Assembly (NCBI RefSeq): GCF_003075455.1
Contig: NZ_QDAE01000013.1
Coordinates: forward strand, 1-64,000
Source: Arthrobacter sp. Bz4
Lineage (GTDB): Bacteria; Actinomycetota; Actinomycetes; Actinomycetales; Micrococcaceae
Reading direction: 5' to 3'
DNA length: 64,000 bases
Made by a program: the position numbers and the translations under genes. This document shows positions 2,983 through 64,000 of this stretch, in pieces (position 1 is the first letter of the stretch; each line of letters opens with the position of its first letter). The notes under the pieces were generated by a model. It saw nothing but the letters and a program-made list of their open reading frames with translations, was not told where the DNA came from and made no database searches.

Positions 2983-4161
2983 CTAGTCCTGGTTGAGGTC
3001 AGCGTCATCGCCGCGAGGCCGTGCCGGAAGGCGGGAGAGACCGTCGATGAGTTCGGCTGAGTCGCCGCAGAGCGAAATGCGGATCCACCCTTCGCCAATC
3101 GAACCAAACGCGGTCCCGGGCGCCACCGCCACGCCCCGTTCGCGAAGCAGCACGTGCACCCACTTCCGGACGTCGCCGTCCGTGGCGTGCGACAAGTCAG
3201 CCCACAGGTAAAAGGCGCCCTCGGCGTCCAGGAAGTCGATGCCCAGCGATTGCAGCACAGCCGAAGCCGCGTCCCTGTTGCTCCGGTAGTGGCTCAGCGC
3301 CGTCGCCACATAATCCTGCGGGCCGGTCAGCGCTGCCAACGCCGAATACTGCGACGACGCCGCTACGCAGGACACGATCGATTCCATCACGTTGTCGAGC
3401 TGTTGCTGCATGCCCGGGGGCGTAATGAGCGCTCCGACCCGAATCCCGGTGAGCCCATAGGTCTTGGACAGGGTGATGGAGGTAAAAACCCTGTCTGCTC
3501 CCGGCCTATCGAAACGGGCGGGGCTGACATGCGGGACGTCATAGGTGAACGATTCGTAGCACTCATCGGAGATAACCCAGAGGTCGTGGACCCGGGCGAA
3601 TTCCATCAGCTCACGGGTCAGGCCTTCGCTGAAGACAGCACCGAGCGGGTTCGACGGGGAGTTCAGGACGATGACCCGGGTGCGGGAGCTCAGGAGTTCC
3701 TCGAGGTCCTTCACCCGGGGCTGGAACCCGTGCTCGGCGTGCAGCGGGTACTCCACGGGTACGGCGTGCAGCAGACCGGCAGTCATGCCAAACGTGGGAT
3801 AACCGGGATTGGGGATCAGCACCTCGTCGCCGACGTCGAGCAGCAGGCTCATGGCCAGGTGCAGTCCCTGCTGGGCCCCCGCTGTCACGTAGACCCGACC
3901 CGGGTCCACGTCGACCGCATTCTGTGCGCTGAACCGGGCGGCGAAGGCTTCCCTCAGGGGGGCGATGCCAGCATTGGGTGTGTAGTTGGTCTCGTCCCGG
4001 TCCAACGCCGCCATCCCGGCTTCCAGAACATGGCGAGCCACCGGAAACCCCGGTTCGCCGATGCTCAGCACAATTGCACCGGGCGTCGCCCAGGAAGCTT
4101 GAGTGATTTCACGGATCTGGTTGGCTGGGAGCGAATCGGCGTGGGACGAGATCTTCGGCAT
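2983..4161 (-). CDS. class I/II PLP-dependent aminotransferase
   Basis: A fold-type I aminotransferase of the aspartate/alanine aminotransferase family, probably cytosolic. Visible are the substrate-side SIGEPGFP motif near the N-terminus, NAGIAPLREA, NSPSNPLGAV and DECYESFTY, and the PLP-lysine motif SKTYGLTGIRVG. The frame is open to 4221, but I prefer the ATG at 4161 (MPKISSHADS): it gives the family's usual N-terminus and lies six bases from a TACGCT hexamer in the leaderless arrangement. It is divergent from truB across 39 bases. The amino-acid substrate cannot be told from sequence alone. Confidence 0.88.
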   Translation of the reverse strand: MPKISSHADSLPANQIREITQASWATPGAIVLSIGEPGFPVARHVLEAGMAALDRDETNYTPNAGIAPLREAFAARFSAQNAVDVDPGRVYVTAGAQQGLHLAMSLLLDVGDEVLIPNPGYPTFGMTAGLLHAVPVEYPLHAEHGFQPRVKDLEELLSSRTRVIVLNSPSNPLGAVFSEGLTRELMEFARVHDLWVISDECYESFTYDVPHVSPARFDRPGADRVFTSITLSKTYGLTGIRVGALITPPGMQQQLDNVMESIVSCVAASSQYSALAALTGPQDYVATALSHYRSNRDAASAVLQSLGIDFLDAEGAFYLWADLSHATDGDVRKWVHVLLRERGVAVAPGTAFGSIGEGWIRISLCGDSAELIDGLSRLPARPRGDDADLNQD

Positions 4162-4167
4162 TGGGCA

Positions 4168-4173
4168 AGCGTA
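4168..4173 (-). promoter_or_regulatory. -10 element for the aminotransferase (leaderless)
   Basis: TACGCT on the minus strand ends six bases before the ATG at 4161, so transcription would begin at or next to the start codon. No Shine-Dalgarno sequence is present. It lies where the -35 of the divergent truB promoter would fall. Confidence 0.55.
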
Positions 4174-4187
4174 TCCCCGCGTCGCCC

Positions 4188-4193
4188 TATACT
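4188..4193 (+). promoter_or_regulatory. -10 element for truB (leaderless)
   Basis: TATACT is followed by seven bases (GAGAGGC) and then the truB GTG at 4201, which places the predicted transcription start on the start codon. Confidence 0.65.
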
Positions 4194-4200
4194 GAGAGGC

Positions 4201-5118
4201 GTGAATTCCGGGCAAGTCCACTCAGGACTAATAATCGTGGACAAGCCTCAGGGCTGGACCAGTCATGACGTCGTCAGCAAAATGCGCGGTATCGCCGGGA
4301 CCCGTAAGGTGGGCCACGCTGGCACCCTCGATCCGATGGCAACAGGCGTGCTGGTGGTCGGCATCAACCGGGCCACCCGGCTGCTCACCTATGTGGTCGG
4401 TACGTCCAAAACCTATACGGCCACCATTCGGCTGGGGCAGTCGACGGTGACCGACGACGCCGAGGGCGACGTGGTTACAACCGCCGACGCCGCGGGCATC
4501 ACCGCCGAGGCCGTCCGTGCCGGGGCGGAAGCGCTTACCGGTGAAATACAGCAGATACCCAGCAGCGTGAGCGCCATCAAAGTCAACGGGCAGCGCGCCT
4601 ACACCCGGGTTCGCTCCGGGGAGGACGTGGTCCTCGCGGCACGCCCGGTCACGATCCACCGCTTTGATATCCACGACATCCGGCCCGTGACAAGCGCGGA
4701 GGGCGATGGAACGCTGCTGGACATCGATGTCACAGTCGAATGCAGTTCGGGGACCTATATTCGGGCGCTGGCCCGGGACCTGGGCGGTTCACTGGGCGTC
4801 GGCGGACATCTGACGGCACTCCGCCGGACCCAAGTGGGTCCGTACTCGCTGGAACAGTCGGCAACCCTGGAGGAACTGGCCACCGATCTCCGACTGTTGC
4901 CCATCAACGATGCGGCGCGGGTGCTCTTCACCCCCCGCGAACTTTCCGCAGCCGAAGCACTCGATCTATCGCACGGGCGTTTCATCCCGGCCGGGCCCGA
5001 CGACGGTCCGGTGGCCGCGTTCGCCCCCGACGGCACCCTGATCGCCCTCCTCAAGAACTCGTCAGACCGGGCCCGCCCCCTGCTGGTTTTCGCTCCCGGG
5101 AACGGCTCTGCCCAGTGA
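4201..5118 (+). CDS. truB: tRNA pseudouridine(55) synthase
   Basis: TruB makes pseudouridine 55 in the T-loop of tRNAs. The 305-residue product starts with SGLIIVDKPQGWTSHDVV, and the catalytic aspartate is D44 in GHAGTLDPMATG. The later SSGTYIRALARDLG block and the actinobacterial C-terminal domain are present. The frame runs on far upstream without a stop, but GTG 4201 is preferred because homologues begin there and a TATACT hexamer sits seven bases upstream. Its stop overlaps the next GTG by four bases (GTGA), which suggests translational coupling. Confidence 0.95.
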   Translation: MNSGQVHSGLIIVDKPQGWTSHDVVSKMRGIAGTRKVGHAGTLDPMATGVLVVGINRATRLLTYVVGTSKTYTATIRLGQSTVTDDAEGDVVTTADAAGITAEAVRAGAEALTGEIQQIPSSVSAIKVNGQRAYTRVRSGEDVVLAARPVTIHRFDIHDIRPVTSAEGDGTLLDIDVTVECSSGTYIRALARDLGGSLGVGGHLTALRRTQVGPYSLEQSATLEELATDLRLLPINDAARVLFTPRELSAAEALDLSHGRFIPAGPDDGPVAAFAPDGTLIALLKNSSDRARPLLVFAPGNGSAQ

Positions 5119-5950: not shown

Positions 5951-6003
5951 GAGTATGACTGCAGGAGTACCAATTAATGCTGGAGCCAGTTAAAGGGAGC
6001 ATC

Positions 6004-23646: not shown

Positions 23647-24725
23647 CTAGCCGCCGATCGCGCTCATGCTGCGGTCCGGCTGGACAAAATCGTCCGAACC
23701 CAGACCCACGTGGCCCATCCCATGCGCTTTCGGCTTGGCCCACATGGCGTCCTGCCAGCGGGCGGCGATCGCGTCGTCGTCGGCGTCCGACCGCAGCAGA
23801 TCCCGTAGATCGGTCTCCTCGCGGGAAAATAGGCAGCTCATGATCTTGCCCTCGGCGGTGACGCGGGTTCGCCGGCAGTCGGCGCAGAACGGCTCAGTCA
23901 CCGAGGCGATAATGCCCACGGTGCCGACGACGATGTCAGGGGCCGCGATTCGGCGTACCTCCCAGCGCTCGGCGGGGGCGCGTCCCGGTTGCGCGGATCC
24001 GGGGTCAGCACAAACTGCTGCTCCAGCAGGGTCCGCATCTCGAGGGCAGTGATCATGCCGTCGCGGGTCCAGCCGTGGTCCGCGTCGAGGGGCATCTGCT
24101 CGATAAAACGCAGCTCAAATCCCTTGGACACCGCCCATTCGAGGAGTTCGGGCGCCTCATGGTCGTTGATCCCGCGCATCAGGACGGCGTTGATCTTGAC
24201 CAGGCCAAGCCCCACCTCCGCCGCAGCTTCGATACCCCGCAGCACCCGGTCGAGGAACGGCCGGCGGGTCAGTTGGGCAAACGTATCGGGGTGGAGCGAA
24301 TCCATCGACACATTGATCCGGCTCAGGCCCGCGTCCTTGAGGGCTTGAGCCTTTTTGTCCAGGCCCAGGCCGTTGGTCGTCATGGAGATGGGCAGGTCCG
24401 CGTGGTTGGCGCGGATGTCGCCGATGATCTGCAGCAGGTCGGCCCGCACCAGCGGTTCGCCACCCGTCAGGCGCAATTCACGCACCCCGAGGGAATCAAC
24501 GCCGATCCGCACCAGCCGGACGATCTCCTCACGGGAGAGCACGGCTGACTTTTGCAGCCAGTCAAGACCCTCGGCGGGCATGCAATAGGTGCAGCGCAGA
24601 TTACATTTGTCGGTCAGCGACAGGCGCATGTCAGTGGCCTTGCGGCCGAAACTGTCAATCAGCCCCGGCCCGGCATCAGAGGGACGCTGGACCCCGATAT
24701 GCGGCATACCCAGTTCAATTCCCAT
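23647..24725 (-). CDS. moaA: GTP 3',8-cyclase MoaA (interrupted by a -1 frameshift)
   Basis: A radical-SAM enzyme, the first step of Moco synthesis. The N-terminal part (24725 down to ~23975) has the SAM cluster motif DKCNLRCTYCM and GGEPLVR. After a C-run (rc of the G-run around 23973-23977) the frame is lost: the next conserved residues (AERWEVRRIAAPDIVVGTVG) are read in another frame, then EPFCADCRRTRV and IMSCLF (second 4Fe-4S cluster) and a C-terminal GG. One extra C would restore 359 residues. Both halves are fully conserved, so a sequence error is likely. The ATG at 24725 has a leaderless-type TAATCT upstream. Confidence 0.85.
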
Positions 24726-24731
24726 CCCTCG

Positions 24732-24737
24732 AGATTA
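24732..24737 (-). promoter_or_regulatory. -10 element for moaA (leaderless)
   Basis: TAATCT on the minus strand is six bases from the moaA ATG at 24725. Confidence 0.55.
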
Positions 24738-29327: not shown

Positions 29328-29333
29328 TAGGGT
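29328..29333 (+). promoter_or_regulatory. -10 element for dapB
   Basis: TAGGGT ends eight bases before the dapB ATG at 29342, giving a leaderless or near-leaderless transcript. No ribosome binding site is visible. Confidence 0.45.
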
Positions 29334-29341
29334 TGGGTGTT

Positions 29342-30100
29342 ATGACTGAACAACTTGCCGTGGCCGTACTCGGCGCCGCCGGCCGCATGGGGTCGGAGGC
29401 CGTCAAGGCCATCGACGCCGCAGCGGACCTGAAACTGGTGGCAGCCCTCGGGCGCGAAGACACCCTGGAGACCATTGTCGCGGCCGGCGCGCAATGCATC
29501 GTCGACCTCTCCGTCCCCGACGCGACCTTCGACAACGTGGTGTTCGCCGTGGAGCGCGGCATCCATGCCGTCGTCGGGACTACCGGGTGGGACGAATCAC
29601 GGCTGCAGCAGCTCGGCAGTCTGCTCGCTGATCACCCGACCACCGGGGTGCTGATCGCCCCGAACTTCGCGGTCGGCTCGGTGCTGGCCTCAGCGTTCGC
29701 CGCGCGGGCAGCCAAATACTTCGAGTCGGTTGAGATCGTCGAACTGCATCATCCGGACAAGGTGGACGCTCCCTCGGGCACCGCCGTGCGGACCGCGAAC
29801 CTGATCGCGCAAACACGCCGGGAAGCAGGCCTTCCCGCCAGCCCCGACGCAACCACCGCCGAGCTCGACGGCGCCCGCGGCGCCGACGTCGACGGCGTCC
29901 GGGTGCACTCGGTACGGCTGCGCGGTCTGGTCGCGCACCAGGAGGTGCTCCTCGGTGGCGTTGGCGAGCAGCTCACCATTCGCCATGACTCCTACCACCG
30001 CGAATCATTCATGCCCGGCGTGCTGCTGGGCGTGCGCGGTGTCGCGTCCCACCCCGGCCTGACGGTCGGGCTGGACGGCTACCTCGAACTGGAAGCGTGA
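29342..30100 (+). CDS. dapB: 4-hydroxy-tetrahydrodipicolinate reductase
   Basis: The second step of the DAP/lysine branch, cytosolic. The 252-residue product has the NAD(P) motif LGAAGRMGSEAV at the N-terminus, TTGWDESRL and the substrate signature ELHHPDKVDAPSGTAVRTA. ATG 29342 (MTEQLAVAV) is preferred over the in-frame TTG at 29333. The stop overlaps a GTG (GTGA) of the following membrane-protein gene. dapA lies 1.7 kb downstream. Confidence 0.95.
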   Translation: MTEQLAVAVLGAAGRMGSEAVKAIDAAADLKLVAALGREDTLETIVAAGAQCIVDLSVPDATFDNVVFAVERGIHAVVGTTGWDESRLQQLGSLLADHPTTGVLIAPNFAVGSVLASAFAARAAKYFESVEIVELHHPDKVDAPSGTAVRTANLIAQTRREAGLPASPDATTAELDGARGADVDGVRVHSVRLRGLVAHQEVLLGGVGEQLTIRHDSYHRESFMPGVLLGVRGVASHPGLTVGLDGYLELEA

Positions 30101-31768: not shown

Positions 31769-31844
31769 GACCTGATCGTCTCACAGCGGGGAGTCAGCCC
31801 CGCGGCGGCGATGTGCAGCGGAAGCTAAACGGTGTCGAACCGGG

Positions 31845-31850
31845 TAACGT
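31845..31850 (+). promoter_or_regulatory. -10 element for dapA (leaderless)
   Basis: TAACGT is followed by seven bases (TTTACCC) and the dapA ATG at 31858. Confidence 0.6.
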
Positions 31851-31857
31851 TTTACCC

Positions 31858-32805
31858 ATGGCTCAAACCGACACCCGCACCCTTCCCTTCGGCACCCTGG
31901 TCACAGCGATGGTGACCCCGTTCCACGCTGACGGCAGCGTGGACTTCGAGGCCACCGCCCAGCTCGCGACTCACCTGGTCGACGACGGCTGCGACGGCCT
32001 GGTGATCTCCGGGACCACCGGTGAGACCTCCACGCTGGAGGACCAGGAAAAGGAAGACCTGTTCCGGGTGGTCGTGGAAGCCGTGGGCGGGCGGGCGAAG
32101 GTCATCGCCGGCACCGGAACCAACCACACCTCGCACTCCATCGAGATGGCGCAGCGTGCCGTGCGCGCTGGCGTCGACGGACAACTGGTGGTCACCCCGT
32201 ACTACAACAAGCCCACCCAGGCCGGTGTGCTGGCCCACTTCGAAGCGATTGCCGCTGCCACCGAGCTGCCCATCATGATCTACGACATCCCAGGCCGGTC
32301 CAGCATCCCGATCCAGACCGAGACCATGATCCGGCTGGCAGACAATCCCAGGATTGTCGCGCTCAAGGATGCCAAAGCGGATTTCGCGGAGATCACCAGG
32401 GTGCTCGCCAACACCACGCTCGACGTGTACTCGGGCGACGACGGCCTCACCCTCCCCTGGATGATGGCTGGCGGCGTCGGTGTGGTCAGTGTCAGCGCAC
32501 ACGTGGCCACCGCCCAGTTCAGGGCGCTGGTCGACGCCGCGGGCGCCGGGGACGTGGCCACCGCCCGCCGGATCCACTTTGAGCTCGACCCGGTGGTGCG
32601 CGCGGTGATGACCCACATCCCCGGAGCCGTCTCGGCGAAGCAGATCCTCAAACGGCAGGGGCTGATCCCCAACGCTGCGGTGCGGCTGCCCCTGGTCGGA
32701 CCCACCGCCGTCGAGATGGAAACCGTGCTCGCCGACCTGGCCGAAGCGGGGATGAACTTCGACCGCCCGCGCTCCACCCGGACCGCTGACGGAACACCCG
32801 CATGA
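31858..32805 (+). CDS. dapA: 4-hydroxy-tetrahydrodipicolinate synthase
   Basis: The first committed enzyme of DAP/lysine synthesis; it condenses pyruvate with aspartate semialdehyde. The 315-residue TIM barrel has GTTGETSTLE, VVTPYYNKPTQAG (catalytic Tyr) and the Schiff-base Lys170 in VALKDAKADF. The start is ATG 31858, directly downstream of a leaderless-type hexamer; the frame is open to 31813. The stop overlaps the RNase J ATG by four bases. Confidence 0.96.
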   Translation: MAQTDTRTLPFGTLVTAMVTPFHADGSVDFEATAQLATHLVDDGCDGLVISGTTGETSTLEDQEKEDLFRVVVEAVGGRAKVIAGTGTNHTSHSIEMAQRAVRAGVDGQLVVTPYYNKPTQAGVLAHFEAIAAATELPIMIYDIPGRSSIPIQTETMIRLADNPRIVALKDAKADFAEITRVLANTTLDVYSGDDGLTLPWMMAGGVGVVSVSAHVATAQFRALVDAAGAGDVATARRIHFELDPVVRAVMTHIPGAVSAKQILKRQGLIPNAAVRLPLVGPTAVEMETVLADLAEAGMNFDRPRSTRTADGTPA

Positions 32806-34647: not shown

Positions 34648-34653
34648 TACCGT
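34648..34653 (+). promoter_or_regulatory. -10 element for ftsK (leaderless)
   Basis: TACCGT is followed by seven bases and ATG 34661. This ATG is internal to the longest frame but is the one set in leaderless position. Confidence 0.5.
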
Positions 34654-34660
34654 TGGCACT

Positions 34661-37579: not shown

Positions 37580-37582
37580 CCT
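37577..37582 (+). promoter_or_regulatory. -10 element for pgsA (leaderless)
   Basis: TAGCCT, which contains the ftsK stop codon, is followed by six bases and the pgsA GTG at 37589. Confidence 0.5.
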
Positions 37583-37588
37583 TATGCC

Positions 37589-38215
37589 GTGAGTATTCCT
37601 CCGGCCAAACAGGTCCCTACGCTGAACATTGCCAACGTCCTTACGGTGGTGCGGATCCTTCTGGTCCCGTTCTTCATCTGGTTTCTGCTCCTGGACGACT
37701 CGGCCGCCGATGACTCGGGCGGGCTTTTCCGCTGGCTGGCGGTGGCGGTGTTCGCCGTCGCGATCTACACCGATAAACTCGACGGCGACCTGGCTCGGAG
37801 CCGCGGGCTAATCACCGACTTTGGGAAAATTGCCGACCCTATCGCCGACAAACTGCTCATAGGTGCCGCACTGATCCTGCTCTCTGTCATGGGAGAACTC
37901 TGGTGGTGGGTCACCATCGTGATCCTGGTCCGCGAACTGGGCATCACCGTGCTGCGGTTCGCCGTCATCCGCTACGGAGTGATGCCAGCCTCACGGGGCG
38001 GGAAACTCAAAACAGTCATCCAGACCTTCGCCATCTTCCTCTACCTGCTGCCACTGGCCGGGGTGCTCGGTGACTGGTATTCCTGGGTGGCCATCACGGT
38101 GATGCTGGCAGCCGTCGCCGTCACCGTCGTCACCGGGATTGACTACATTATCCAGGCGATCCGGCTCCGGCGTGATGCGCTTTCAACCGGGCACCCCGGC
38201 AGCCCGACGTCGTAG
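37589..38215 (+). CDS. pgsA: CDP-diacylglycerol-glycerol-3-phosphate 3-phosphatidyltransferase
   Basis: A membrane enzyme of phosphatidylglycerol synthesis. The 208 residues carry the complete CDP-alcohol phosphotransferase motif, DKLDGDLARSRG then DFGKIADPIADK, and about six helices. GTG 37589 gives the usual IANVLTVVRILLVPFF N-terminus. cinA starts 11 bases after its stop. Confidence 0.95.
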   Translation: MSIPPAKQVPTLNIANVLTVVRILLVPFFIWFLLLDDSAADDSGGLFRWLAVAVFAVAIYTDKLDGDLARSRGLITDFGKIADPIADKLLIGAALILLSVMGELWWWVTIVILVRELGITVLRFAVIRYGVMPASRGGKLKTVIQTFAIFLYLLPLAGVLGDWYSWVAITVMLAAVAVTVVTGIDYIIQAIRLRRDALSTGHPGSPTS

Positions 38216-39410: not shown

Positions 39411-39883
39411 CACCAGTTGTCTTTGGTGTACGTCTCATTGAGTTGGGCAATCAGGGTCCCCAGGGTGGTGAGGTCCTTGACATCCCAGTCGTCCATCAGG
39501 TTGTGGAACGCTTCCTTACGGGCGGTCTGGGCGGCGACCAGCTGCTTCGAGCCGGCGGGGGTCAGGGTAATCGACTGGGCCCGGCCATCGAGCGGGTCGG
39601 CTTCCTTCTGGACCAGGCCGAGTTGTTCGAGCATCGCTATCTGCCGGCTGACCGATGGTTTGCCGACGCCGATACTCGCCGCGATGTCGGTCAGCCGCAT
39701 GGCGCCCTCCCGCTGAAGGATCACCAGCAGGCCGTAGGCGGCCGGTTCCATGTCCGGGTGGACGCGCCGGGCCACCTTGTAGGAGTTCGATCGTGCCCTC
39801 CGCCACAGCATGCTCAGTTGTTGTTCCAATGCCTGGATGGCAGTGTCTACGGCGGGATCGGCTTCACGGTGCTCGGCTGTCAT
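39410..39883 (-). CDS. MarR family transcriptional regulator
   Basis: 157 residues from ATG 39883. The winged helix is clear: YGLLVILQREGAMRLTDIAASIGVGKPSVSRQIAMLEQLGLVQKEADPLDGRAQSITLTPAG. The start is chosen because TAGAAT lies seven bases upstream; the frame is open to 39955. It is divergent from DUF3046 and convergent with clgR. Its ligand is unknown; MarR proteins often repress neighbouring genes and themselves. Confidence 0.88.
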   Translation of the reverse strand: MTAEHREADPAVDTAIQALEQQLSMLWRRARSNSYKVARRVHPDMEPAAYGLLVILQREGAMRLTDIAASIGVGKPSVSRQIAMLEQLGLVQKEADPLDGRAQSITLTPAGSKQLVAAQTARKEAFHNLMDDWDVKDLTTLGTLIAQLNETYTKDNW

Positions 39884-39890
39884 GTGCTTC

Positions 39891-39896
39891 ATTCTA
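39891..39896 (-). promoter_or_regulatory. -10 element for the MarR gene (leaderless)
   Basis: TAGAAT on the minus strand is seven bases from the ATG at 39883. Confidence 0.5.
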
Positions 39897-43815: not shown

Positions 43816-43821
43816 TACCCT
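43816..43821 (+). promoter_or_regulatory. -10 element for miaB (leaderless)
   Basis: TACCCT is followed by six bases and the miaB GTG at 43828. Confidence 0.55.
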
Positions 43822-43827
43822 TAACGG

Positions 43828-45391
43828 GTGAGTCTCATTACCCCAACCCTTCCCACAGGTCCCGCCGCTGAACGGGCCGGTGTTCCTGGCGCAGCGGTGT
43901 CGGGGGCGCAGCGCACCTACGAGGTTCGGACCTACGGCTGCCAGATGAACGTCCACGACTCGGAGCGCATCTCCGGGCTGCTGGAGGCCGCCGGCTATGC
44001 CGCAGCAACGGACACCCAGGCCGACGTCGTCGTGTTCAATACCTGCGCGGTCAGGGAGAACGCCGACAACAAGCTCTACGGCAACCTCGGCATGCTCGCC
44101 TCGGTCAAGGAAACGCACCCCGGCATGCAGATCGCCGTCGGTGGCTGCCTCGCCCAGAAAGACCGCGACACCATCCTGAAGAAAGCGCCGTGGGTCGACG
44201 CGGTATTCGGCACCCACAACGTCGGCGCTCTCCCCGCGCTCCTGGAGCGGGCCCGCCACAACAACGAGGCGCAGCTGGAGATCCTCGAGTCCCTCGATGT
44301 CTTCCCGTCCACGCTCCCGACCAAGCGCGACGCCGTCTACTCCGGCTGGGTGTCCATCTCGGTCGGCTGCAACAACACCTGTACCTTCTGCATCGTCCCT
44401 GCCCTGCGCGGCAAGGAACGCGATCGGCGACCGGGGGAGATCCTCGCCGAAATCGAGGCGCTGGTGGCCGATGGTGCGATCGAAGTGACCTTGCTGGGCC
44501 AGAACGTCAATTCCTACGGGGTGGAGTTCGGCGACCGGGGTGCCTTCGCCAAGCTCCTCCGCGCCTGCGGGAGCATCGAGGGTCTCGAACGGGTCAGGTT
44601 CACCAGCCCCCACCCGGCAGCCTTCACCGACGACGTCATCGACGCCATGGCCGAGACCCCCAACGTGATGCCCCAACTTCACATGCCCCTGCAATCGGGC
44701 TCCGACCAGATCCTCAAATCGATGCGCCGCTCGTACCGGTCGTCGAAATTCCTCGGCATCCTCGACCGGGTGCGGGCCAAAATGCCCCACGCATCAATCT
44801 CCACCGACATCATCGTCGGTTCCCCGGGGAAACCGAGGAAGACTTCCAGGCCACCCTCGACGTCGTCGAGAAGTCCCGCTTCGCCACCGCCTTCACGTTC
44901 CAGTACTCGAAGCGGCCCGGCACCCCTGCCGCTGACCTGCCCAATCAAATCCCGAGGCGGTGGTGCAGGAACGGTTCGAACGGCTGACCGCCTTGCAGGA
45001 CCGCATCGCAGCAGAAGAGAATGCCCTCCAGCTCGGGCGGACGGTCGAGCTGATGGTCACCGCCCAGCAGGGCCGTAAAGCCAGCGAAACCCACCGGCTC
45101 TCGGGCCGGGCCCGTGACCAGCGCCTGGTTCATTTCTCGGTGCCCGACGGCGTCGAACCGCCCCGCCCCGGTGACCTGGTCACCGTCACGGTCACGGAGG
45201 CTGCCGCCTTCCACCTGGTGGCGGACCCCGCGACGCCGGCAGAACTTCACATCCGCCGGTCCCGGGCCGGTGACGCGTGGGATCGGGCACAGGCCGATTC
45301 GTGCGGCGTGCCAGCGCCTGGCGGGTCAGCCGCTGGCCCAGCAGGCGCCGTGTCGCTGGGGATGCCCTCGCTGCCGGTCCGCGACGCCTGA
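43828..45391 (+). CDS. miaB: tRNA-2-methylthio-N6-dimethylallyladenosine synthase (interrupted by two -1 frameshifts)
   Basis: A radical-SAM methylthiotransferase acting on A37 of tRNAs after MiaA. The N-terminal part is intact: [37 protein letters not shown] and the SAM cluster [22 protein letters not shown]. After SISTDIIVG (44819) one T is missing from an expected TTT, and [25 protein letters not shown] is read in another frame. After LPNQIP (44953) one C is missing and [17 protein letters not shown] plus the TRAM domain are in a third frame. With two bases restored the protein is 521 residues. miaA follows in three bases. Confidence 0.88.
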
Positions 45392-45393: not shown

Positions 45394-46323
45394 GTGCTTC
45401 CCGCTGCGCCCGCATCCCCGCCCCTGATCGCCGTCGTCGGACCCACCGGGTCGGGCAAGTCATCGCTTGGCATCGAACTCGCGCGCAGGTTCAACGGCGA
45501 AATCATCAACGCCGACTCGATGCAGTTCTATCGCGGCATGGACATTGGCACCGCCAAGGTCAGTCTTGACGAGCGGCAGGGGATACCGCATCACCTGCTC
45601 GACACGCTCGACGTCCGGGAGGAAGCCAGCGTCGCCGCCTACCAGCAGCAGGCGCGGACCGCGATCGACGCTATCCGGGACCGCGGCAGGATGCCGATCC
45701 TGGTGGGCGGGTCGGGGCTGTACATTCGGGCGGCCCTTGACGTCCTGGAGTTCCCTGGTACCGAGCCGGGCATCCGGGCCCAGCTGGAAGCCGACCTGGC
45801 CCGCGACGGCGCGGACCTCCTCCGCGAGCGCCTCGCGGCAGTGGACCCGATCTCCGCCGGCCGGGATCTCGATGACCGCCGGCTGATCAGGGCCCTCGAA
45901 GTGTACGAGGTGACCGGCCGCCCGTTCAGCTCCTTCATGCCGCAACGCCTGTACCACCAGCCGGCACTGCAGCTGGGCCTGCGAGTGGACCGGCCGGTGT
46001 TACGTGAGCGCCTGGCTACCAGGGTCCACACCATGGTCGACGACGGGCTGCTCGACGAAGTAGCACGCCTGGACCGCCAGGGTCTGCGGAGCGGTCGGAC
46101 GGCATCCCGGGCACTGGGATACGCCCAGTTCCTTCAGGTCCTCGACGGTGAGCTGACCACGGAACAGGCAGCGAGCGACACCATCGACGCGACCCGGCGG
46201 TTTGCCCGCCGCCAGCTCACCTGGTTCCGCGCCGACCCGCGAATCACGTGGCTCGACTGGGAGGATCCGCTCCTGGGCTCCCGGGCCGCAGACCACCTCC
46301 AGCAGACCTTCGGCCTATCCTAG
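45394..46323 (+). CDS. miaA: tRNA dimethylallyltransferase
   Basis: MiaA adds the dimethylallyl group to A37 of tRNAs, the substrate for MiaB. From GTG 45394 the product is 309 residues, with [20 protein letters not shown] (P-loop), [38 protein letters not shown] and [10 protein letters not shown]. The GTG is two bases after the miaB stop. The dapF -10 element overlaps its last codons. Confidence 0.95.
46316..46321 (+). promoter_or_regulatory. -10 element for dapF (leaderless)
   Basis: TATCCT, inside the end of miaA, is followed by six bases and the dapF GTG at 46328. Confidence 0.55.
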
Positions 46324-46327
46324 ACAC

Positions 46328-47272
46328 GTGACTATTCAATCCGACGCACTGGTTTCACCAGCACCGACCGCCCTGAGTGGTGTCGCCTTCACCAAGGGCC
46401 ACGGCACCGGAAACGATTTTGTCCTGGTCACCGACCCGGACGGCGAGCTGGAGATCGGGCCCGACGACGTCCGCACCATCTGTGACCGGCACCGTGGTAT
46501 CGGCGCAGACGGGTTGATTCGAGCGATCAGATCCCGCCACCTGCCGGAGGGGCGGGTGCTGCTCCAGAGTGATCCGTCGGCCGAGTGGTTCATGGATTAC
46601 CGCAACTCGGATGGCTCGCTGTCGGAAATGTGCGGCAACGGCGTCCGGGTCTTCGTCCACCTGCTGGTCTCCGCGGGGCTGCTCAGCCTTGCCGAGGGAG
46701 CCACGGCGTCGATTGCCACCCGCGGCGGGATCAAACTGGTGGAACGGTCCGTCGATGGTTACTCGGTGGATATGGGTCCCTGGGAGTTCATCTTCCCCGA
46801 CGCTGCAGCATCGCGAGCCACCGATTCCCTGGTGGAGGCCGATGGGCTGGAGGTTCCGCGGCCCGCCCTGTCAATCAGCATGGGCAACCCCCACACGGTC
46901 GTGGCACTGGCTGAGCCTGCCGAACTGGATGCCGCACGGCTGTTCACCGCGCCGGTCGTCGACCCAACGCCCGTCGACGGGACCAACGTCGAATTCGTGG
47001 TGCCGCACGATCCGCTGGTGCACGACGGCGTCGGCCGCGTCAGGATGCGGGTGCATGAGCGCGGTGTGGGGGAGACCCTGTCCTGCGGGACGGGGGCGTG
47101 CGCAGTTGCGGCGGCCACGAGATTCTGGGCCGGGGCCGAAGCGCCCCTCACCTGGCGGGTCGAGGTGCCCGGCGGCGTCGTCGGCGTCCGCTTCCACGCC
47201 GGACCTGACGGGCGCGAACATGTCAGCCTGAGCGGGCCAGCCGTCCTGGTGGCGACCGGCACCTTCCTCTAA
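46328..47272 (+). CDS. dapF: diaminopimelate epimerase
   Basis: DapF converts LL-DAP to meso-DAP for lysine and peptidoglycan. From GTG 46328 the product is 314 residues, with FTKGHGTGNDFVLV near the N-terminus and both catalytic cysteines: the first in SEMCGNGVRVF, the second in LSCGTGACAVAAA. The frame is open upstream, but the start at 46328 gives the family N-terminus. It is the third DAP gene in the window. Confidence 0.95.
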   Translation: MTIQSDALVSPAPTALSGVAFTKGHGTGNDFVLVTDPDGELEIGPDDVRTICDRHRGIGADGLIRAIRSRHLPEGRVLLQSDPSAEWFMDYRNSDGSLSEMCGNGVRVFVHLLVSAGLLSLAEGATASIATRGGIKLVERSVDGYSVDMGPWEFIFPDAAASRATDSLVEADGLEVPRPALSISMGNPHTVVALAEPAELDAARLFTAPVVDPTPVDGTNVEFVVPHDPLVHDGVGRVRMRVHERGVGETLSCGTGACAVAAATRFWAGAEAPLTWRVEVPGGVVGVRFHAGPDGREHVSLSGPAVLVATGTFL

Positions 47273-47310: not shown

Positions 47311-47919
47311 CTAGGGAGTGAGGCGTTCCACCCGGATGATCCTGAACGACTTCGAGGTAGCAGTACGGGACACCTCGAACCCGTCGGCCAGCTGATCGGC
47401 AATCCACTTCTGCAGCGAGTCAGCGCCGAGATTCTTCTGCACCACCAGCCACGCGGACCCGCCAGGCGACAGCCGGGGCAGCCACTTCAGCAGCAGCGCG
47501 TGCAGCTCGTCCTTGCCCACCCTGATCGGTGGATTGGACCAGATGGTGTCGAAGGTGGCATCGGCGTCGACCTCTTCAGGGCGGGTCGCCACCACATTGC
47601 CCAGGCCCAACAGTTTCGCGTTTTCCGCGGTGAGCGCCAGCGCCCGTTCGTTGACGTCGACGGCGACCACCTGGGCGTCGGGGGCCAGCAGCGCCATCGT
47701 CAGTGCCAGTGGACCCCAGCCGCAGCCAATATCGAGCATCCGGGAGCCCACCGGATTGGGGGCCTCAGCGAGCAGGATGCGGGTGCCCTTGTCGATCCCG
47801 TCGGAGCTGAAGATGCCCGAGGACGTTACCAGGGTGCGCTCTACCCCGGCCAGCACCGTGCGGAGCGGTTTGCGGGTCTCCGGGCCGGCCGGCTGGGCGC
47901 TGAAGTAGTGGGAATCCAT
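47311..47919 (-). CDS. class I SAM-dependent methyltransferase, RsmC-like
   Basis: 202 residues from ATG 47919 (MDSHYFSAQPAGPE). The SAM motif MLDIGCGWGPLAL and the amino-methyltransferase motif WSNPPIRVGKDE (NPPI) point to the RsmC/RlmG group that methylates guanine N2 in rRNA. It corresponds to the single-domain form. TACGCT lies eight bases upstream of the start. It is convergent with dapF and divergent from hflX. The exact rRNA target is not determined. Confidence 0.85.
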   Translation of the reverse strand: MDSHYFSAQPAGPETRKPLRTVLAGVERTLVTSSGIFSSDGIDKGTRILLAEAPNPVGSRMLDIGCGWGPLALTMALLAPDAQVVAVDVNERALALTAENAKLLGLGNVVATRPEEVDADATFDTIWSNPPIRVGKDELHALLLKWLPRLSPGGSAWLVVQKNLGADSLQKWIADQLADGFEVSRTATSKSFRIIRVERLTP

Positions 47920-47927
47920 AACAAACC

Positions 47928-47933
47928 AGCGTA
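47928..47933 (-). promoter_or_regulatory. -10 element for the methyltransferase gene
   Basis: TACGCT on the minus strand is eight bases from the ATG at 47919; near-leaderless. Confidence 0.4.
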
Positions 47934-53369: not shown

Positions 53370-53375
53370 TAACCT
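53370..53375 (+). promoter_or_regulatory. -10 element for hisC (leaderless)
   Basis: TAACCT is followed by six bases and the hisC GTG at 53382. Confidence 0.55.
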
Positions 53376-53381
53376 TGACAG

Positions 53382-54491
53382 GTGAGCGAACAGTTTGAGC
53401 GGTTGAGCCGGTTGCCCCTGCGCGAGGATCTGCGGGGCAAGCACCCCTACGGTGCGCCCCAGTTGGATGTCCCCATCCTCCTGAACGTCAATGAGAATAC
53501 CCATGGAGTGCCGGACGATGTCCGGCAGGCAATCGTTGATGCGGTGAGCCGGGAGGTCGGGGGGCTGAACCGTTACCCCGACCGTGAGTTCACCGAGCTC
53601 CGGACCAATCTTGCACGCTACCTCGGCCACGGACTGACGCCCGAAAACCTGTGGGCCGCCAACGGATCCAACGAGGTACTGCAGCACCTGCTGCAGGCCT
53701 TCGGCGGCCCGGGTCGATCAGCCATCGGCTTCCCCCCGACCTACTCCATGTATCCGTTGCTGGCCAGCAGCACCGGCACCCGCTATATCGCAGGGCAGGG
53801 TAACGACAGGTTCGAGCTCAGCGCCGCCGACGCGGCCCGCGAAGTGCGCGAATCCGGCGCGAACCTCGTCTTTCTGTGCTCGCCGAACAACCCGACCGGC
53901 TCAGCGCTGGGCCTGGATGTGGTGGAAGCGGTTTATGAGGCGGGCAGCGACGCGCAGGCAATCGTGATCGTCGATGAGGCCTATGCCGAGTTCGCCCACG
54001 CAGGCACCGTCAGCGCCCTCAGCCTGCTGGCGGGCCGGGAACGTCTTGTGGTGTCCCGCACCATGAGCAAGGCTTTCGCGATGGCCGGGACGAGGCTCGG
54101 TTACCTGGCGGCGGCCCCCGAGGTTGCTGACGCGCTGCGCCTGGTCCGGTTGCCGTACCACCTTTCGGCCATCACCCAGGCGGCAGCGAACGCGGCCCTG
54201 ACCCACTCTGACCGATTGCTTGCCAACGTGGAAAACATCAAGGTGCAACGCGATCGGATAGTGACCAGTCTCCAGCACCTCGGGTTGACCCCGGTGCCCT
54301 CGGACGCCAACTTCGTTCTCTTCGGCGGACTGGACGACCCGCACCGCATCTGGCAGGGCCTGCTCGACGGGGGAGTGCTGATTCGCGACGTCGGTATTCC
54401 CGGTCACCTCCGGGTCACCGCAGGCACCGAGACGGAAACCACAGTGTTCCTCGACACCCTCGGTGCCCTGCTGGAGGGGACCGTCTCCTAG
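53382..54491 (+). CDS. hisC: histidinol-phosphate aminotransferase
   Basis: A PLP enzyme of histidine synthesis, 369 residues. It has the N-terminal [20 protein letters not shown] and [11 protein letters not shown] typical of His[22 protein letters not shown] and the PLP-binding Lys230 in [20 protein letters not shown]. hisD is not present upstream in this window; the preceding gene is the LysM protein. It leads the his gene run. Confidence 0.94.
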
Positions 54492-59683: not shown

Positions 59684-59697
59684 TAACCGATCATCGA

Positions 59698-59774: not shown

Positions 59775-60830
59775 ATTAGCGAGCCAAGAATCAATGATCG
59801 TATCCGCGTCCCAGAGGTGCGGTTGGTAGGACCTGCGGGCGAACAGGTAGGCATCGTCCGTATTGAGGATGCTCTCCGTCTTGCCTCCGAGTCAGACCTG
59901 GATCTTGTTGAGGTTGCACCGCAGGCCAAGCCTCCGGTTGCCAAGCTCATGGATTTTGGCAAGTACAAGTATGAGGCCGCGGTCAAGGCTCGTGAGGCGC
60001 GCAAGAACCAGACGAACACCGTTCTCAAGGAGATCCGGTTCCGCCTGAAGATTGACACTCATGATTACGAGACCAAGCGCGGACATGCAATGCGCTTCCT
60101 GGGCGCAGGCGACAAGGTCAAGGCCATGATTCAGTTCCGTGGACGCGAGCAGCAGCGACCCGAAATGGGTATTCGCCTGCTGCAGAAGTTCGCTGAGGAC
60201 GTTGCCGAGGTGGGAATCGTTGAATCGACCCCCCGCATCGACGGTCGCAACATGGTCATGGTCATTGGTCCGGTCAAGAACAAGGCTGAGGCAAAGGCTG
60301 AAGCGCGACGCGCTACCCAGCGCGCCGATGCCAAGGCTGCGAATGAGGCGGTGAAGGCTGGTACCGAGAAGGTGGATACCACCCCGGACAAGGCGCCCAT
60401 GACGCAGAGCCTCGCGGACCTGCTGCCCGACGGCTACTCAACCACCGCTTCCCAGGAGGCGGCCGAAGAAGCCGCAGCACAGGAAGTGATTGCGGCCGAA
60501 GTTGCAGCCAAGGAGGCCGCGGCGCAGGAAATCGTCGACCGCGAGAAGGCTATCCAGGACAAGGCGGATCAGGAAGTCGCAGCAGCCGAGGCAGCCAAGG
60601 CAGCGAAAGCTGCCGAGAAAGCCGCTGCTGAAGCACCGAAGGCTCCAGCCAAGGCGGCCGGTGCGAAGGCAGCTGAGAAACCAGCAGCTGCTCCCAAGCC
60701 CGCTGCAGCGCCGAAGCCAACCGCGGCTCCCAAGCCGATGGCCATGCCCAAGCCAGCAACACCCAAACCTGCCAGCAAGGCAGCTCCCCGGAGCACGCCG
60801 AGCCGGCCTAAGCCCGGAACCTCCGACTAG
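59775..60830 (+). CDS. infC: translation initiation factor IF-3, ATT start, long C-terminal tail
   Basis: IF-3 binds 30S and checks the start codon. I place the start at ATT 59775 ([19 protein letters not shown]): AGGAG at 59764-59768 is six bases upstream, IF-3 homologues begin here, and AUU starts on infC allow IF-3 to repress itself. The TTG at 59736 lacks a ribosome binding site. Both IF-3 domains end near residue 175; about 170 further residues are Ala/Lys/Glu/Pro-rich ([35 protein letters not shown]), a tail found in some actinobacterial IF-3. Total is 351 residues. Confidence 0.93.
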
Positions 60831-61135: not shown

Positions 61136-61170
61136 CTCACCCAAACCACTTAACCGGGCTTGCGCCAGTC

Positions 61171-61187
61171 TCCTGCACACTGCAGGA
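61171..61187 (+). promoter_or_regulatory. hairpin between rpmI and rplT
   Basis: TCCTGCA and TGCAGGA form a 7-bp stem with a CAC loop in the 99-base gap before rplT. Possible L20-binding or processing site; position-based inference only. Confidence 0.3.
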
Positions 61188-61234
61188 CAGCGCTGAACAT
61201 CATCACCCGGTAGATCTACTGAAGGAGTACGCAC

Positions 61235-61657: not shown

Positions 61658-61732
61658 GCTTTCGTCTTACCCTTCTCGGTTCGGTCTCACCCGGATTACG
61701 GGGAAGACCCAAAATACTGAGAACATCAGTAC

Positions 61733-62644
61733 ATGACTAACACCGGACGCCCAGCGGCACCGCCCATGACCAACCCCCGAGCTGATCGGGTCAAGGAAGT
61801 GGCTCGGCTCGCTGGGCGTCCGGCCCGTTTAAGGCAGGGCCGGTTTCTCGCCGAGGGGCCTCAATCCGTTCGGGAAGCATTGGCATTGCATTCGGCGCGC
61901 CACGCTGCGGGCGAGCCGGAGGTCATCGAGGAACTGTTCATCACCGAGGAATGCCTGGACCGGCACGCCGAGCTTGGACTGTTCGAAGGACAGCCAGCCC
62001 CACGGCTGGTGACTGAGGAAGTGCTGGCCGCAATGTCTTCGACGGTGACGCCGCAGGGTGTCATCGCGGTGTGTTCGTTTGTCGATGTCCCGCTCGAAGC
62101 GATGCTCGCCAGGGAGCCCCGGCTAGTTGCCGTGATGGTGGAAGTGCGCGATCCCGGCAACGCGGGAACCATCCTGCGGGCAGCCGATTCCGCTGGCGCC
62201 GACGCGGTGGTGTTGACGTCGTCGAGCGTTGACCTCTACAACCCGAAGGCTGTCCGGTCAACTGTCGGGTCACTGTTTCACTTGCCGGTGGTCCTGGGCG
62301 CCGACCTTGACCTGGTGCTCACCTCGCTGCGGGAGCGCGGGATCACCGTGCTGGCAGCCGACGGATACGGCGACGTCGACCTCGACACCCTGCAGGAAGG
62401 CAGTGCACGACGGCGGCTGGCACCCTCAGCCGAGAACGCTGGGGACGGGAGCAGTGCAGCTCGACTGGAAGCCCCGACGGCCTGGCTCTTCGGTAACGAA
62501 GCGCAGGGGCTGCCCGACGTCGTTTTGAAGGGCGCGGACCACCGGGTGGCAGTGCCCATCTATGGTCGGGCGGAAAGCCTCAACGTGGGGACCGCCGCAA
62601 CCGTCTGCCTTTACGCCTCCGCGAGGGCGCAGCGCCTCAGCTGA
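61733..62644 (+). CDS. TrmH/SpoU family RNA 2'-O-methyltransferase
   Basis: 303 residues. An N-terminal substrate-binding domain (RLRQGRFLAEGPQSVREAL) is followed by the three SpoU motifs: MVEVRDPGNAGTILRAADSAG, WLFGNEAQGLPD and VPIYGRAESLNVGTAATVCLY. It methylates ribose in tRNA or rRNA; its target is not resolved, and TsnR-like annotation is common for this position after rplT. A second in-frame ATG at 61766 is possible. It overlaps the convergent MFS gene by eight bases. Confidence 0.9.
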   Translation: MTNTGRPAAPPMTNPRADRVKEVARLAGRPARLRQGRFLAEGPQSVREALALHSARHAAGEPEVIEELFITEECLDRHAELGLFEGQPAPRLVTEEVLAAMSSTVTPQGVIAVCSFVDVPLEAMLAREPRLVAVMVEVRDPGNAGTILRAADSAGADAVVLTSSSVDLYNPKAVRSTVGSLFHLPVVLGADLDLVLTSLRERGITVLAADGYGDVDLDTLQEGSARRRLAPSAENAGDGSSAARLEAPTAWLFGNEAQGLPDVVLKGADHRVAVPIYGRAESLNVGTAATVCLYASARAQRLS

Positions 62645-63866
62645 GGCCCTGGCCGACCGCCGAATGTTCAGTCGGCCGGGGCGTCCTGGTTCCCCGGTCC
62701 ATCCGCCCGCTGACCAAGGCCACAGCAAGCCCGATGACGGCCAACACCGCACCGACCAGTGCCGGAGCCGTGTACCCCCAGCCAGCGGCGATCACCGCGC
62801 CGCCCAGGAACGCGCCCAGGGCGTTGGCAATATTGAGTGCTGCATGGTTCAGGGACGAGGCGAGGGACGGCGCGTCAGGGGAGACGTCGAGCAGGCGGAC
62901 CTGAAGCGACGGAATCAGCATGGCGCCAATCGCACCGACCAGGAAGACGAACAGCAGGGCGGTTGGCGCCCACTGAACGGCGAAGGAGAACGCCACCAGC
63001 GCGGCGGCGATCACGCCCATCACCCAGTAGATGGTGCCCATCACGGAAATGTCGGCCAGGCGGCCGCCAATAATGTTCCCGGTCACCATGCCCAGACCAT
63101 AGAGGGCAACGACGAACGGCAAGGTCGCTTCGGGGAGGCCCGTGACCTCGGTCATGGTCGGGGAGATGTAGGAGTAGACAGCGAAGAAACCACCGAAGCC
63201 AACTGTGCCGATCAGCAGCGTCATCCACACCTGGCCACGTTGCAAGGCGCCCAGCTCCCGGCGGATACTCGCATTCTGCAGGACCTGCTGGTGAGGGACG
63301 CTGCGGGAAATCATCCAGATAGTGACCACCCCAATGACACCCACCAGAAGGAACATGGTCCGCCACCCGAACATCTGACCCAACCAGGTGGCGAACGGTA
63401 CTCCGATGACGTTGGCGATACTGAGCCCCAGCATCACCATGGCCACGGCGTGCGCCCGGCGCGTGGGCGCCGAGAGGGACGCGGCAATGACAGCCGCGAT
63501 GCCGAAGTACGCGCCGTGGGGGAGACCCGACATGAAACGGGAAAACAACAGCCAGCCGTAGTCGGCGGCGAAATAGGACGACAGGTTCCCGACGGTGAAG
63601 AGAACCATCAGCCCCAGCGCCATCCCTTTGCGGGGCAACCGGGCGCCGAGGGCAGCGAGCAGGGGAGCGCCGATGACGACGCCGATCGCGTAGGCCGAGA
63701 TGACATGCCCACCCTCGGGAATGGAGATATCAAGGTCGCCCACCATCTCCTGCAGGAGACCCATGATGGCGAACTCGGTGGTGCCGATACCGAAGCCGCC
63801 CATGGCGAGGGCGATGATGGCGAAGTTCAGCTGCCGTGGGGTGAGGGTGCGTCGGGCGTCAGACAT
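62637..63866 (-). CDS. MFS transporter, DHA1 (AraJ/Cmx-like) family
   Basis: 409 residues and 12 helices. The first helix region (FAIIALAMGGFGIGTTEFAIMGLLQEMVGDL) and the motif-A loop (GARLPRKGMALGLMVLFTVGN) match the AraJ/Cmx/NepI-like drug and sugar efflux group. FSRFMSGLPHGAYFGIAAVIA is also typical. It is probably a drug or metabolite exporter of the plasma membrane; the substrate is unknown. Confidence 0.88.
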   Translation of the reverse strand: MSDARRTLTPRQLNFAIIALAMGGFGIGTTEFAIMGLLQEMVGDLDISIPEGGHVISAYAIGVVIGAPLLAALGARLPRKGMALGLMVLFTVGNLSSYFAADYGWLLFSRFMSGLPHGAYFGIAAVIAASLSAPTRRAHAVAMVMLGLSIANVIGVPFATWLGQMFGWRTMFLLVGVIGVVTIWMISRSVPHQQVLQNASIRRELGALQRGQVWMTLLIGTVGFGGFFAVYSYISPTMTEVTGLPEATLPFVVALYGLGMVTGNIIGGRLADISVMGTIYWVMGVIAAALVAFSFAVQWAPTALLFVFLVGAIGAMLIPSLQVRLLDVSPDAPSLASSLNHAALNIANALGAFLGGAVIAAGWGYTAPALVGAVLAVIGLAVALVSGRMDRGTRTPRPTEHSAVGQGLS

Positions 63867-63970
63867 GGAACTCGTTTCGGCATCAGATGGTGTTGGTGGC
63901 GTTGCTCTGTAGAGCGCAACGCATCGACGCCGTTGTCTATTTCAACTGTAGCCGGGCCGGTACCGCCAGC

Positions 63971-63976
63971 TACACT
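63971..63976 (+). promoter_or_regulatory. -10 element for the last, partial gene (leaderless)
   Basis: TACACT is followed by six bases and GTG 63983, the same geometry as at truB, miaB and hisC. Confidence 0.4.
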
Positions 63977-63982
63977 CGGTTC

Positions 63983-64000
63983 GTGCCAGTTGACCAGTTA
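63983..64000 (+). CDS. start of a gene cut by the window edge
   Basis: Six codons (MPVDQL, GTG start) after a leaderless-type -10 element. Nothing more can be said about the product. Confidence 0.35.

Follow-up and report, generated by a model that had tools for sequence, protein, structure and literature searches.

Thirteen genes in the window, the 64,000-nucleotide stretch of DNA from a soil-dwelling Arthrobacter analysed here, carry a TANNNT hexamer at a short and tightly kept distance from an ATG or GTG start codon—a signature that is real and conserved, and for which leaderless transcription is, with high probability on the evidence of sequence, the best reading. All 13 hexamers and start codons were located where the sequence-only reading had placed them, 6-8 nt apart. 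Writing Nx for a filler of x bases between hexamer and start codon, seven of the genes fall into the N6 class, four into N7 and two into N8. The N6 modules precede an aminotransferase gene (4159..4173, minus strand; TACGCT at 4168-4173, first base of ATG at 4161; Pfam Aminotran_1_2), moaA (24723..24737, minus strand; TAATCT at 24732-24737, ATG at 24725; Radical_SAM), pgsA (37577..37591, plus strand; TAGCCT at 37577-37582, GTG at 37589; CDP-OH_P_transf), miaB (43816..43830, plus strand; TACCCT at 43816-43821, GTG at 43828; UPF0004 and Radical_SAM), dapF (46316..46330, plus strand; TATCCT at 46316-46321, GTG at 46328; DAP_epimerase), hisC (53370..53384, plus strand; TAACCT at 53370-53375, GTG at 53382; Aminotran_1_2) and the last gene (63971..63985, plus strand; TACACT at 63971-63976, GTG at 63983; NUDIX), whose product, a NUDIX-domain protein of 151 aa, extends past the window end. 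N7 spacing is seen at truB (4188..4203, plus strand; TATACT at 4188-4193, filler ending in C, GTG at 4201; TruB_N and TruB_C), dapA (31845..31860, plus strand; TAACGT at 31845-31850, filler ending in C, ATG at 31858; DHDPS), ftsK (34648..34663, plus strand; TACCGT at 34648-34653, filler ending in T, ATG at 34661; FtsK_SpoIIIE) and a MarR-family regulator gene (39881..39896, minus strand; TAGAAT at 39891-39896, filler ending in C, ATG at 39883; MarR). The N8 modules, both with fillers ending in TT, belong to dapB (29328..29344, plus strand; TAGGGT at 29328-29333, ATG at 29342; DapB_N and DapB_C) and an RsmC-like methyltransferase gene (47917..47933, minus strand; TACGCT at 47928-47933, ATG at 47919; MTS).

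Given the background frequency of TANNNT at N9-N49 (145 of 31,611 upstream positions, 0.46%), about 0.9 of 66 genes would be expected to show the hexamer at N6-8 by chance, against 13 seen (binomial P 6e-12). This value is optimistic, because the sequence-only reader could choose among starts, and tests blind to the motif therefore carry more weight. Among 721 genes with motif-blind starts, taken from 800 kb that lie elsewhere in this genome, the hexamer stands at N6 in 50, at N7 in 19 and at N8 in 6 (75 in total), each of the other spacings up to N20 giving 0-5 matches. A gene-free scan of 400 kb found TANNNT-N6-ATG 58 times, as compared with about 20 at most other spacings and 31 at N5, and gave no clear peak for GTG. 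Over the whole genome, TANNNT-N6-ATG is counted 386 times and its reversal, which is not a perfectly matched control, 234 times. At internal in-frame RTG codons, used as controls, TANNNT lies at N6 in 14 of 6173, and no peak is present. Moreover, a gene caller blind to the motif found 65 genes in the window, and re-scanning all their plausible starts recovered 11 of the 13 modules and no extra gene; the two absent ones are those of truB, which the caller missed, and of the last gene, which the window end cuts.

The same genes had been described as mostly devoid of a Shine-Dalgarno sequence, and a search with a list of such motifs finds none at 4-11 nt in any of the 13. Equally, genes with strong ribosome binding sites were said to lack the module: from N0 to N49 the hexamer is missing before pnp, recA and rplT and, apart from one at N18, before rbfA, and infC has none at N5-N9 for any of its ten candidate starts. 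Across five genomes, TANNNT occurs at N6-N8 in 0 of 332 strong-Shine-Dalgarno genes, those of the window's genome displaying instead a broad excess of the hexamer from about 34 nt upstream. The module is, furthermore, restricted to RTG starts. With Y or R for a pyrimidine or purine as the last filler base, GTG gives weak gene-free peaks (z 2.2 for N6-Y and 1.2 for N6-R, the highest being 2.9 at N7-Y), and neither TTG nor CTG gives any (z -1.1 to 1.5 at N6-N8); in gene-anchored counts outside the window, 11 of 256 GTG starts have the hexamer at N6 and 6 at N7, and TTG starts have it at N6 in 1 of 25. As to genomic context, outside the window the module is found in 0 of 101 genes overlapping an upstream gene on the same strand (800 kb), in 6 of 83 lying 0-29 nt behind such a gene—the arrangement of pgsA—and, with 35 N6-N8 matches, among 216 genes with a divergent neighbour.

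Conservation was examined for 12 of the 13 genes, all but the last, and is strong for ten and partial for pgsA and miaB. The module is present at truB in 28/28 genus relatives and at the aminotransferase gene in 27/27; these two genes are divergent, with 39 nt separating their start codons, and both modules are kept in all 27 relatives having the pair, the gap ranging from 36 to 169 nt. It also precedes moaA in 29/29 genus relatives (0/29 for every one of four sets of control spacings), dapB in 27/29 family relatives (15 at N7, 11 at N6, one at N8) and dapA in 18/18 rows (17 distinct loci), as well as the orthologues of ftsK (37/39), the MarR-family gene (18/18), dapF (59/73), the RsmC-like gene (52/57, with N8 in 20 of the 52) and hisC (32/32). 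For pgsA the count is 19/50 (15/20 in the Micrococcaceae, 4/30 at loci outside them), and for miaB 38/78 (22/22 and 16/56, respectively); orthologues of recA have the module in 0/60. Orthologues hold the spacing although N-terminus length and flanks differ. The module had been credited, too, with settling start choices: the motif-blind caller placed the starts of dapA, ftsK, the MarR-family gene and miaB elsewhere, and for the first three of these the orthologues back the module starts over the caller's picks. A practical rule for annotating start codons follows the same lines, namely N6-RTG, or N6-Y-RTG after the hexamer.

Where transcription begins, which sigma factor acts and how the message is translated can be inferred from this signature. 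The hexamers would be -10 boxes, with the housekeeping sigma factor as their likeliest reader; RNA polymerase would initiate on the first base of ATG or GTG, yielding an mRNA without a 5' untranslated region, and the ribosome would need no Shine-Dalgarno sequence to begin at the 5'-terminal RTG. The resemblance to leaderless-mRNA geometry, pointed out in the sequence-only reading, is supported by the spacing, the RTG limit, the absence from strong-Shine-Dalgarno genes and from genes that overlap an upstream same-strand neighbour, the conservation and the promoter make-up. For the last of these, 160 promoters of the N6 and N7-Y types were assembled; a -35 box was sought in them and not found, divergence from background being at most 0.03 at -32 to -4, and the hexamer is preceded by an S-R-N context (S 0.82 at -3, R 0.66 at -2). 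Separately, an inverted repeat, GGGTAA-4-TTACCC, lies in the window's dapA promoter and occurs once in 864 kb of the genome. Among 18 rows of dapA orthologues, the full repeat is found in one and the inner GGTAA-4-TTACC in five, including that one; TAACGT is more general than the repeat in these rows, and no operator is claimed.

The last filler base separates the spacings further. In a gene-free test on ATG over 2.06 Mb from five genomes, with the mean count at N10-N39 as background, N6-Y (124 vs 33.6, z 17), N6-R (100 vs 53.1, z 7) and N7-Y (92 vs 33.6, z 11) are enriched, and N7-R is not (46 vs 53.1, z -1.1); N5 and N9 show no enrichment in this set, and the N8 excess is not significant (z 1.8-1.9). 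The proposed range of 6-8 nt thus stands for N6, the main spacing, and N7, the second, N8 being weak, and is better put as N6 or N7-Y, with N8 rare. The spacing pattern repeats in four replicate genomes (G009, G023, G049 and G053). At gene starts, a pyrimidine precedes the start codon in 49/53 N7 modules vs 67/110 N6 modules (Fisher P 1.5e-5). The fillers of the window's own N7 and N8 genes end in a pyrimidine in 6/6 cases; no window gene was called at an N7 module, so the stretch that suggested the rule adds nothing to the N7 count. Taken by themselves, the four replicate genomes show a weaker contrast (31/34 vs 40/56, P 0.033), because N6 there also favours C. At N8, a preference for a pyrimidine at -2 is not supported: one is found in 3/6 replicate cases vs 29/56 at N6, and in 10/14 vs 57/110 when pooled (P 0.25). 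A module obeying the rule stands at a plausible start in 113 of 771 called genes of the sampled genome, about one in seven, control spacing pairs giving 11-20.

Orthologues both follow the rule and depart from it. At dapA, a pyrimidine precedes ATG in 16/16 N7 rows (15 distinct), and exceptions are provided by miaB, whose N7 orthologues have a purine there in 6/8, and by a control gene at 48161, which has the module in 12/44 relatives and a purine in the filler of 11 of these 12. At miaB-region loci, excesses by group were N8-Y in the Micrococcaceae (z 3.4), N9-Y in the Nocardioidaceae (z 4.0), and N8-R (z 2.1) and N9-Y (z 2.2) in the Microbacteriaceae. In G098 the ATG N6-R excess is absent (z -0.8), and hence there is no N6/N7 contrast. 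Whole-genome controls with the reversed pattern are poorly matched, so that enrichment derived from them is only rough: against them, N8 counts fall below the control in most of 38 genomes, and with two pyrimidines the control likewise exceeds the observed count in most (60 observed vs 86 in the window's own genome). The filler rule rests, for this reason, on the background of other spacings and on gene starts. A phylum-wide scan, relying on the same poorly matched control, hints that a purine at N7 is tolerated in some genomes outside the class.

These counts suggest a positioning step in which the polymerase would normally pass over the six bases that follow the hexamer and use the next purine it meets. 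With N6 spacing the start codon itself would supply that purine, and at N7, probably also at N8, initiation would still fall on the start codon because the extra bases are pyrimidines. We put forward as a serious possibility, a shade short of probable, that this amounts to a leaderless filler code of the Actinomycetes, requiring that, counting from the seventh base past the -10 box, the first purine be that of the start codon, with purines before the start free at N6 and purged at N7 (perhaps N8). Seen as selection, one extra 5' base would be harmful enough for genome-wide removal, and promoter position and translation start would evolve as one unit; the truB/aminotransferase pair, whose intervening sequence is otherwise free to change, may exemplify such a unit.

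It is unlikely that the N7 pyrimidine merely reflects a general preference of the polymerase for a pyrimidine at -1. C is the commonest -1 base in the part of PMC3898074 covered, and the excess N6 modules also lean towards pyrimidine (66%); however, N6-R is enriched and N7-R is not in the same genomes, and the N6 proportions predict 67 Y and 71 R at N7, where 92 and 46 were observed (likelihood ratio 17.9). We find it rather improbable, too, that the -10 boxes place the 5' end a few bases before or after the start codon, with leaders of 1-5 nt and the same Shine-Dalgarno-independent translation. The existence of N7 and N8 modules fits such starts, as do the purine fillers of miaB and of the 48161-gene relatives, which would give leaders of 1-2 nt; yet if short leaders served equally well, both base classes should be enriched at N7, and only pyrimidine is. 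That the hexamer works at the level of the message or its translation, and not as part of a promoter, is very improbable: it does sit at the distance where leadered genes have their Shine-Dalgarno sequence, but it agrees with the -10 box of Actinobacteria, S-R-N context included, and the upstream TANNNT excess of strong-Shine-Dalgarno genes is what promoters of leadered mRNAs would show. Hardly any weight attaches to TANNNT as a by-product of base composition or of starts picked to fit, since, although the sequence-only reading set some starts by the module where the blind caller differed, motif-blind starts, gene-free spacing spectra, internal RTG controls and conservation speak otherwise.

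The preferred reading, leaderless transcription, describes a phenomenon already known from related bacteria (PMC3160421, PMC3898074, PMC4633059). In the passages covered, Zheng et al. 2011 (PMC3160421) predicted TA-led leaderless genes across bacterial genomes downloaded in 2010 and estimated them at >20% of Actinobacteria genes; as here, TANNNT about 12 bp before the start was taken as a -10 box and orthologues of related species were compared, whereas those passages do not sort spacings according to which base precedes the start codon. The word Arthrobacter is absent from the searched text of that paper, whose genome list is a separate web page outside the search. Mycobacterium tuberculosis and M. 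smegmatis likewise have a TANNNT -10 box, no -35 consensus and S-R-N before the hexamer, and an RTG at +1 is necessary and sufficient there, according to the parts of PMC3898074 and PMC4633059 covered; in those species the proof came from mapping of transcription starts, ribosome profiling and reporters, and here, in the Micrococcaceae, the evidence is that of sequence. In Deinococcus-Thermus, a -10 region adjoining the start codon also drives leaderless expression and requires a certain distance (PMC12340547); that study concerns another phylum and is experimental, and its text as covered uses neither the word pyrimidine nor the word purine. No statement of the filler rule was found in the searched literature, including parts of PMC3160421, PMC3898074, PMC12340547, PMC4633059 and PMC9031893, and the rule—N6 taking either base class and N7 enriched for pyrimidines only—may be new. 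The nearest precedent found is in the covered part of PMC4633059, with 1098 RTG at +1 vs 558 at +2 to +5 together, counts derived from transcripts and not from promoter spacing. No transcript-start study of Arthrobacter or its family was among the literature matches listed. The present analysis adds gene-by-gene sequence evidence that leaderless expression would be widespread in the Micrococcaceae, Arthrobacter among them, and the filler rule bears on how far a leaderless message can tolerate any base ahead of its start codon.

Thirteen genes of the window had been said, in the sequence-only reading, to carry a TANNNT hexamer set shortly before an ATG or GTG start codon, mostly without a Shine-Dalgarno (SD) motif. 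Direct reading confirmed hexamer, spacer and start codon for 13 of 13 genes, the spacer measuring six nucleotides (N6) in seven, seven (N7) in four and eight (N8) in two; a listed SD-like motif at 4-11 nt was present in none of them. A Pfam search of all 13 products returned families that agree with the gene names, the RsmC-like product matching the MTS methyltransferase family and that of the last gene (63983) NUDIX. The source is a draft genome (3.41 Mb, 80 contigs); when MiaB is compared, its nearest named relatives prove to be Arthrobacter and further Micrococcaceae.

To place these modules in the wider genome, a gene caller using codon statistics, start-codon type and SD motifs, with TANNNT excluded from scoring, was run over 40 stretches of 20 kb. 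Among 721 called genes outside the window, TANNNT stood at N6 in 50, at N7 in 19 and at N8 in 6, with 0-4 per spacing at N0-N5 and N9-N16. The module occurred in 35/216 genes with a divergent upstream neighbour (N6 26, N7 6, N8 3), in 6/83 genes lying 0-29 nt downstream of a same-strand gene and, outside the window, in none of 101 genes overlapping an upstream same-strand gene; TANNNT at N5-N8 was likewise found in 0/117 strong-SD genes outside the window. In-frame RTG codons within genes gave no spacing peak (14/6173 at N6). A gene-free scan of 400 kb for TANNNT-Nk-ATG peaked at k=6 (58 against about 20), with 31 at k=5, a spacing not enriched in a larger five-genome set. TTG and CTG showed no peaks in either set. 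GTG gave no clear gene-free peak in the 400 kb and weak peaks in the five genomes. In strong-SD genes of the window's genome TANNNT is also in excess, but less strongly and over a broad zone that begins ~34 nt before the start codon, which is what promoters of leadered mRNAs would produce.

The same spacing peaks recur in four replicate genomes, sampled with the same caller over 400 kb each in two of the same genus (G009, G023) and 200 kb each in two of the same family (G049, G053): in that order, counts were 11, 25, 8 and 12 at N6, 9, 10, 10 and 5 at N7, and 2, 1, 1 and 2 at N8. Across these and the window's genome, 0/332 strong-SD genes carried a module at N6-N8.

Conservation was assessed by tblastn, a module being counted when it stood at N6-N8 and no farther than 120 nt from the homologous start; rows were dropped when the match began beyond residue 45, had <35% identity, lay too close to the locus end or spanned less than half of the protein (for dapA, less than 0.3). 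The module was present in all orthologues of the aminotransferase (27/27), truB (28/28), moaA (29/29), MarR (18/18), hisC (32/32) and dapA (18/18 rows, 17 distinct loci), and in 27/29 for dapB, 37/39 for ftsK, 52/57 for the RsmC-like gene, 59/73 for dapF, 38/78 for miaB and 19/50 for pgsA. Control spacing sets, run for the eleven of these genes other than dapA, gave 0-5 per gene. Among control genes, modules were found in 0/60 rows for recA, 0/42 at 45277 (the miaA position), 0/52 at 38263, 0/21 at 5977, 0/28 at 52849, 1/37 at 41678, 1/18 at 28846, 1/41 at 51722 and 3/23 at 49698; six further controls had only 0 or 1 usable rows each. hisB, also among the controls, lacks a module in the window, and 13/20 relatives have one (L024, L028, L032, L033, L035, L037, L038, L039, L043, L044, L053, L063 and L065), all Microbacteriaceae by record title, which suggests that a leaderless start may have been gained or lost by lineage. 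Where the N-terminus changes length, the hexamer shifts together with the start codon, and in some genes a characteristic spacing tends to persist (N8 in 20/52 RsmC-like and N7 in 26/28 truB orthologues).

In the window, 39 nt separate the start codons of the aminotransferase and truB, with both -10 boxes inside the gap; in 27 relatives the gap spans 36-169 nt and is otherwise variable by eye, with both modules kept. Two probable leaderless promoters thus take up the region between the genes, and the complexes formed on them in the window are predicted to be mutually exclusive.

Several further features of the window were recorded. The miaB frame (43828-45382, + strand) is broken: when MiaB of a relative is aligned to the window, the match passes through frames 1, 3 and 2 in succession at ~44820-44957, so the listed 416-aa ORF carries an out-of-frame tail. 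Seven relatives keep the frame open for 508-648 codons, stop to stop; a sequencing error, an assembly error or a damaged gene could be responsible. The moaA frame (23647-24725, - strand) is open for 278 codons vs at least 359 in 29 genus relatives, its C-terminal part resuming in a different frame. Two broken housekeeping frames within one window suggest small errors in the draft. For infC, for which ATT starts are classical, the probable start is the ATT at 59775 (+), with an AGGAG motif upstream, and the mechanical TTG/GTG starts are disfavoured. At the dapA promoter (31842-31857, +), an inverted repeat, GGGTAA-4-TTACCC, covers the -10 box and extends as far as the start codon; it occurs once in 864 kb of this genome, and its inner part is seen again in 5/18 orthologue rows.

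All six N7/N8 spacers of the window end in a pyrimidine. From this we drew, and then tested outside the window, a filler rule whereby the start-codon purine would be the first purine at or beyond the seventh base after the hexamer, allowing N6 with either base class before the start (Y, pyrimidine; R, purine) and N7 with Y only. Gene-anchored counts pooled over five genomes gave a pyrimidine before the start in 49/53 cases at N7 vs 67/110 at N6 (P 1.5e-5), and the four replicates alone 31/34 vs 40/56 (P 0.033). Gene-free, against spacings 10-39 of the same pattern in five genomes, N6 was enriched with both classes (Y z 17, R z 7), and N7 with pyrimidine alone (Y z 11, R z -1.1); any enrichment at N8 was weak and confined to spacers ending in two pyrimidines (z 1.9). 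Across 38 complete sequence sets from the genus, measured against an imperfect reversed-pattern control, N7-Y was in excess in 38/38 (5116 vs 3297), N7-R in 15/38 (2700 vs 2740) and N6-R in 38/38. Loci grouped by record title, all surrounding miaB and hence not independent, divided in the same way, with z for N7-Y and N7-R of 10.2 and 1.3 in Micrococcaceae, 5.0 and 0.9 in Microbacteriaceae, 14.3 and -0.2 in Nocardioidaceae, and 6.6 and 0.8 in other Actinomycetes; individual groups were also somewhat enriched at N8 or N9. Rule-obeying modules at any plausible start were found in 113/771 genes (14.7%) of the window's genome, vs 11-20 for each of four control spacing pairs. One genome of the same class, G098, yielded too few module genes for a comparison (N6 8, N7 2, all with C before the start), and N6-R is not in excess among its ATG counts.

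When the orthologues of ten module genes were taken together, spacers ended in a pyrimidine in 118/128 cases at N7 and 94/176 at N6, and 26/33 N8 spacers had two terminal pyrimidines. Six of the ten N7 exceptions belong to miaB (two Nesterenkonia records and one each of Micrococcus, Myceligenerans, Promicromonospora and Isoptericola). At 48161 lies a gene picked to serve as a control; it carries a module in 12/44 relatives, with a purine in the filler in 11/12; these may be near-leaderless, with leaders of one or two bases. The rule is thus best described as a strong tendency from which particular genes depart.

Ordinary actinobacterial leaderless expression, a kind described since at least PMC3160421, is most likely what these modules represent. 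TANNNT would act as a -10 box without a -35 element, transcription would initiate on the start-codon purine, and translation would proceed from the 5'-terminal RTG (cf. PMC4633059). The S-R-N preceding TANNNT in M. tuberculosis (PMC3898074) is common to the modules here. The promoter anatomy, observed directly, supports the leaderless reading proposed earlier, and from it we infer the transcript start, the sigma factor and the mode of translation. What is new may be the purge of purines before the start codon, dependent on spacing.
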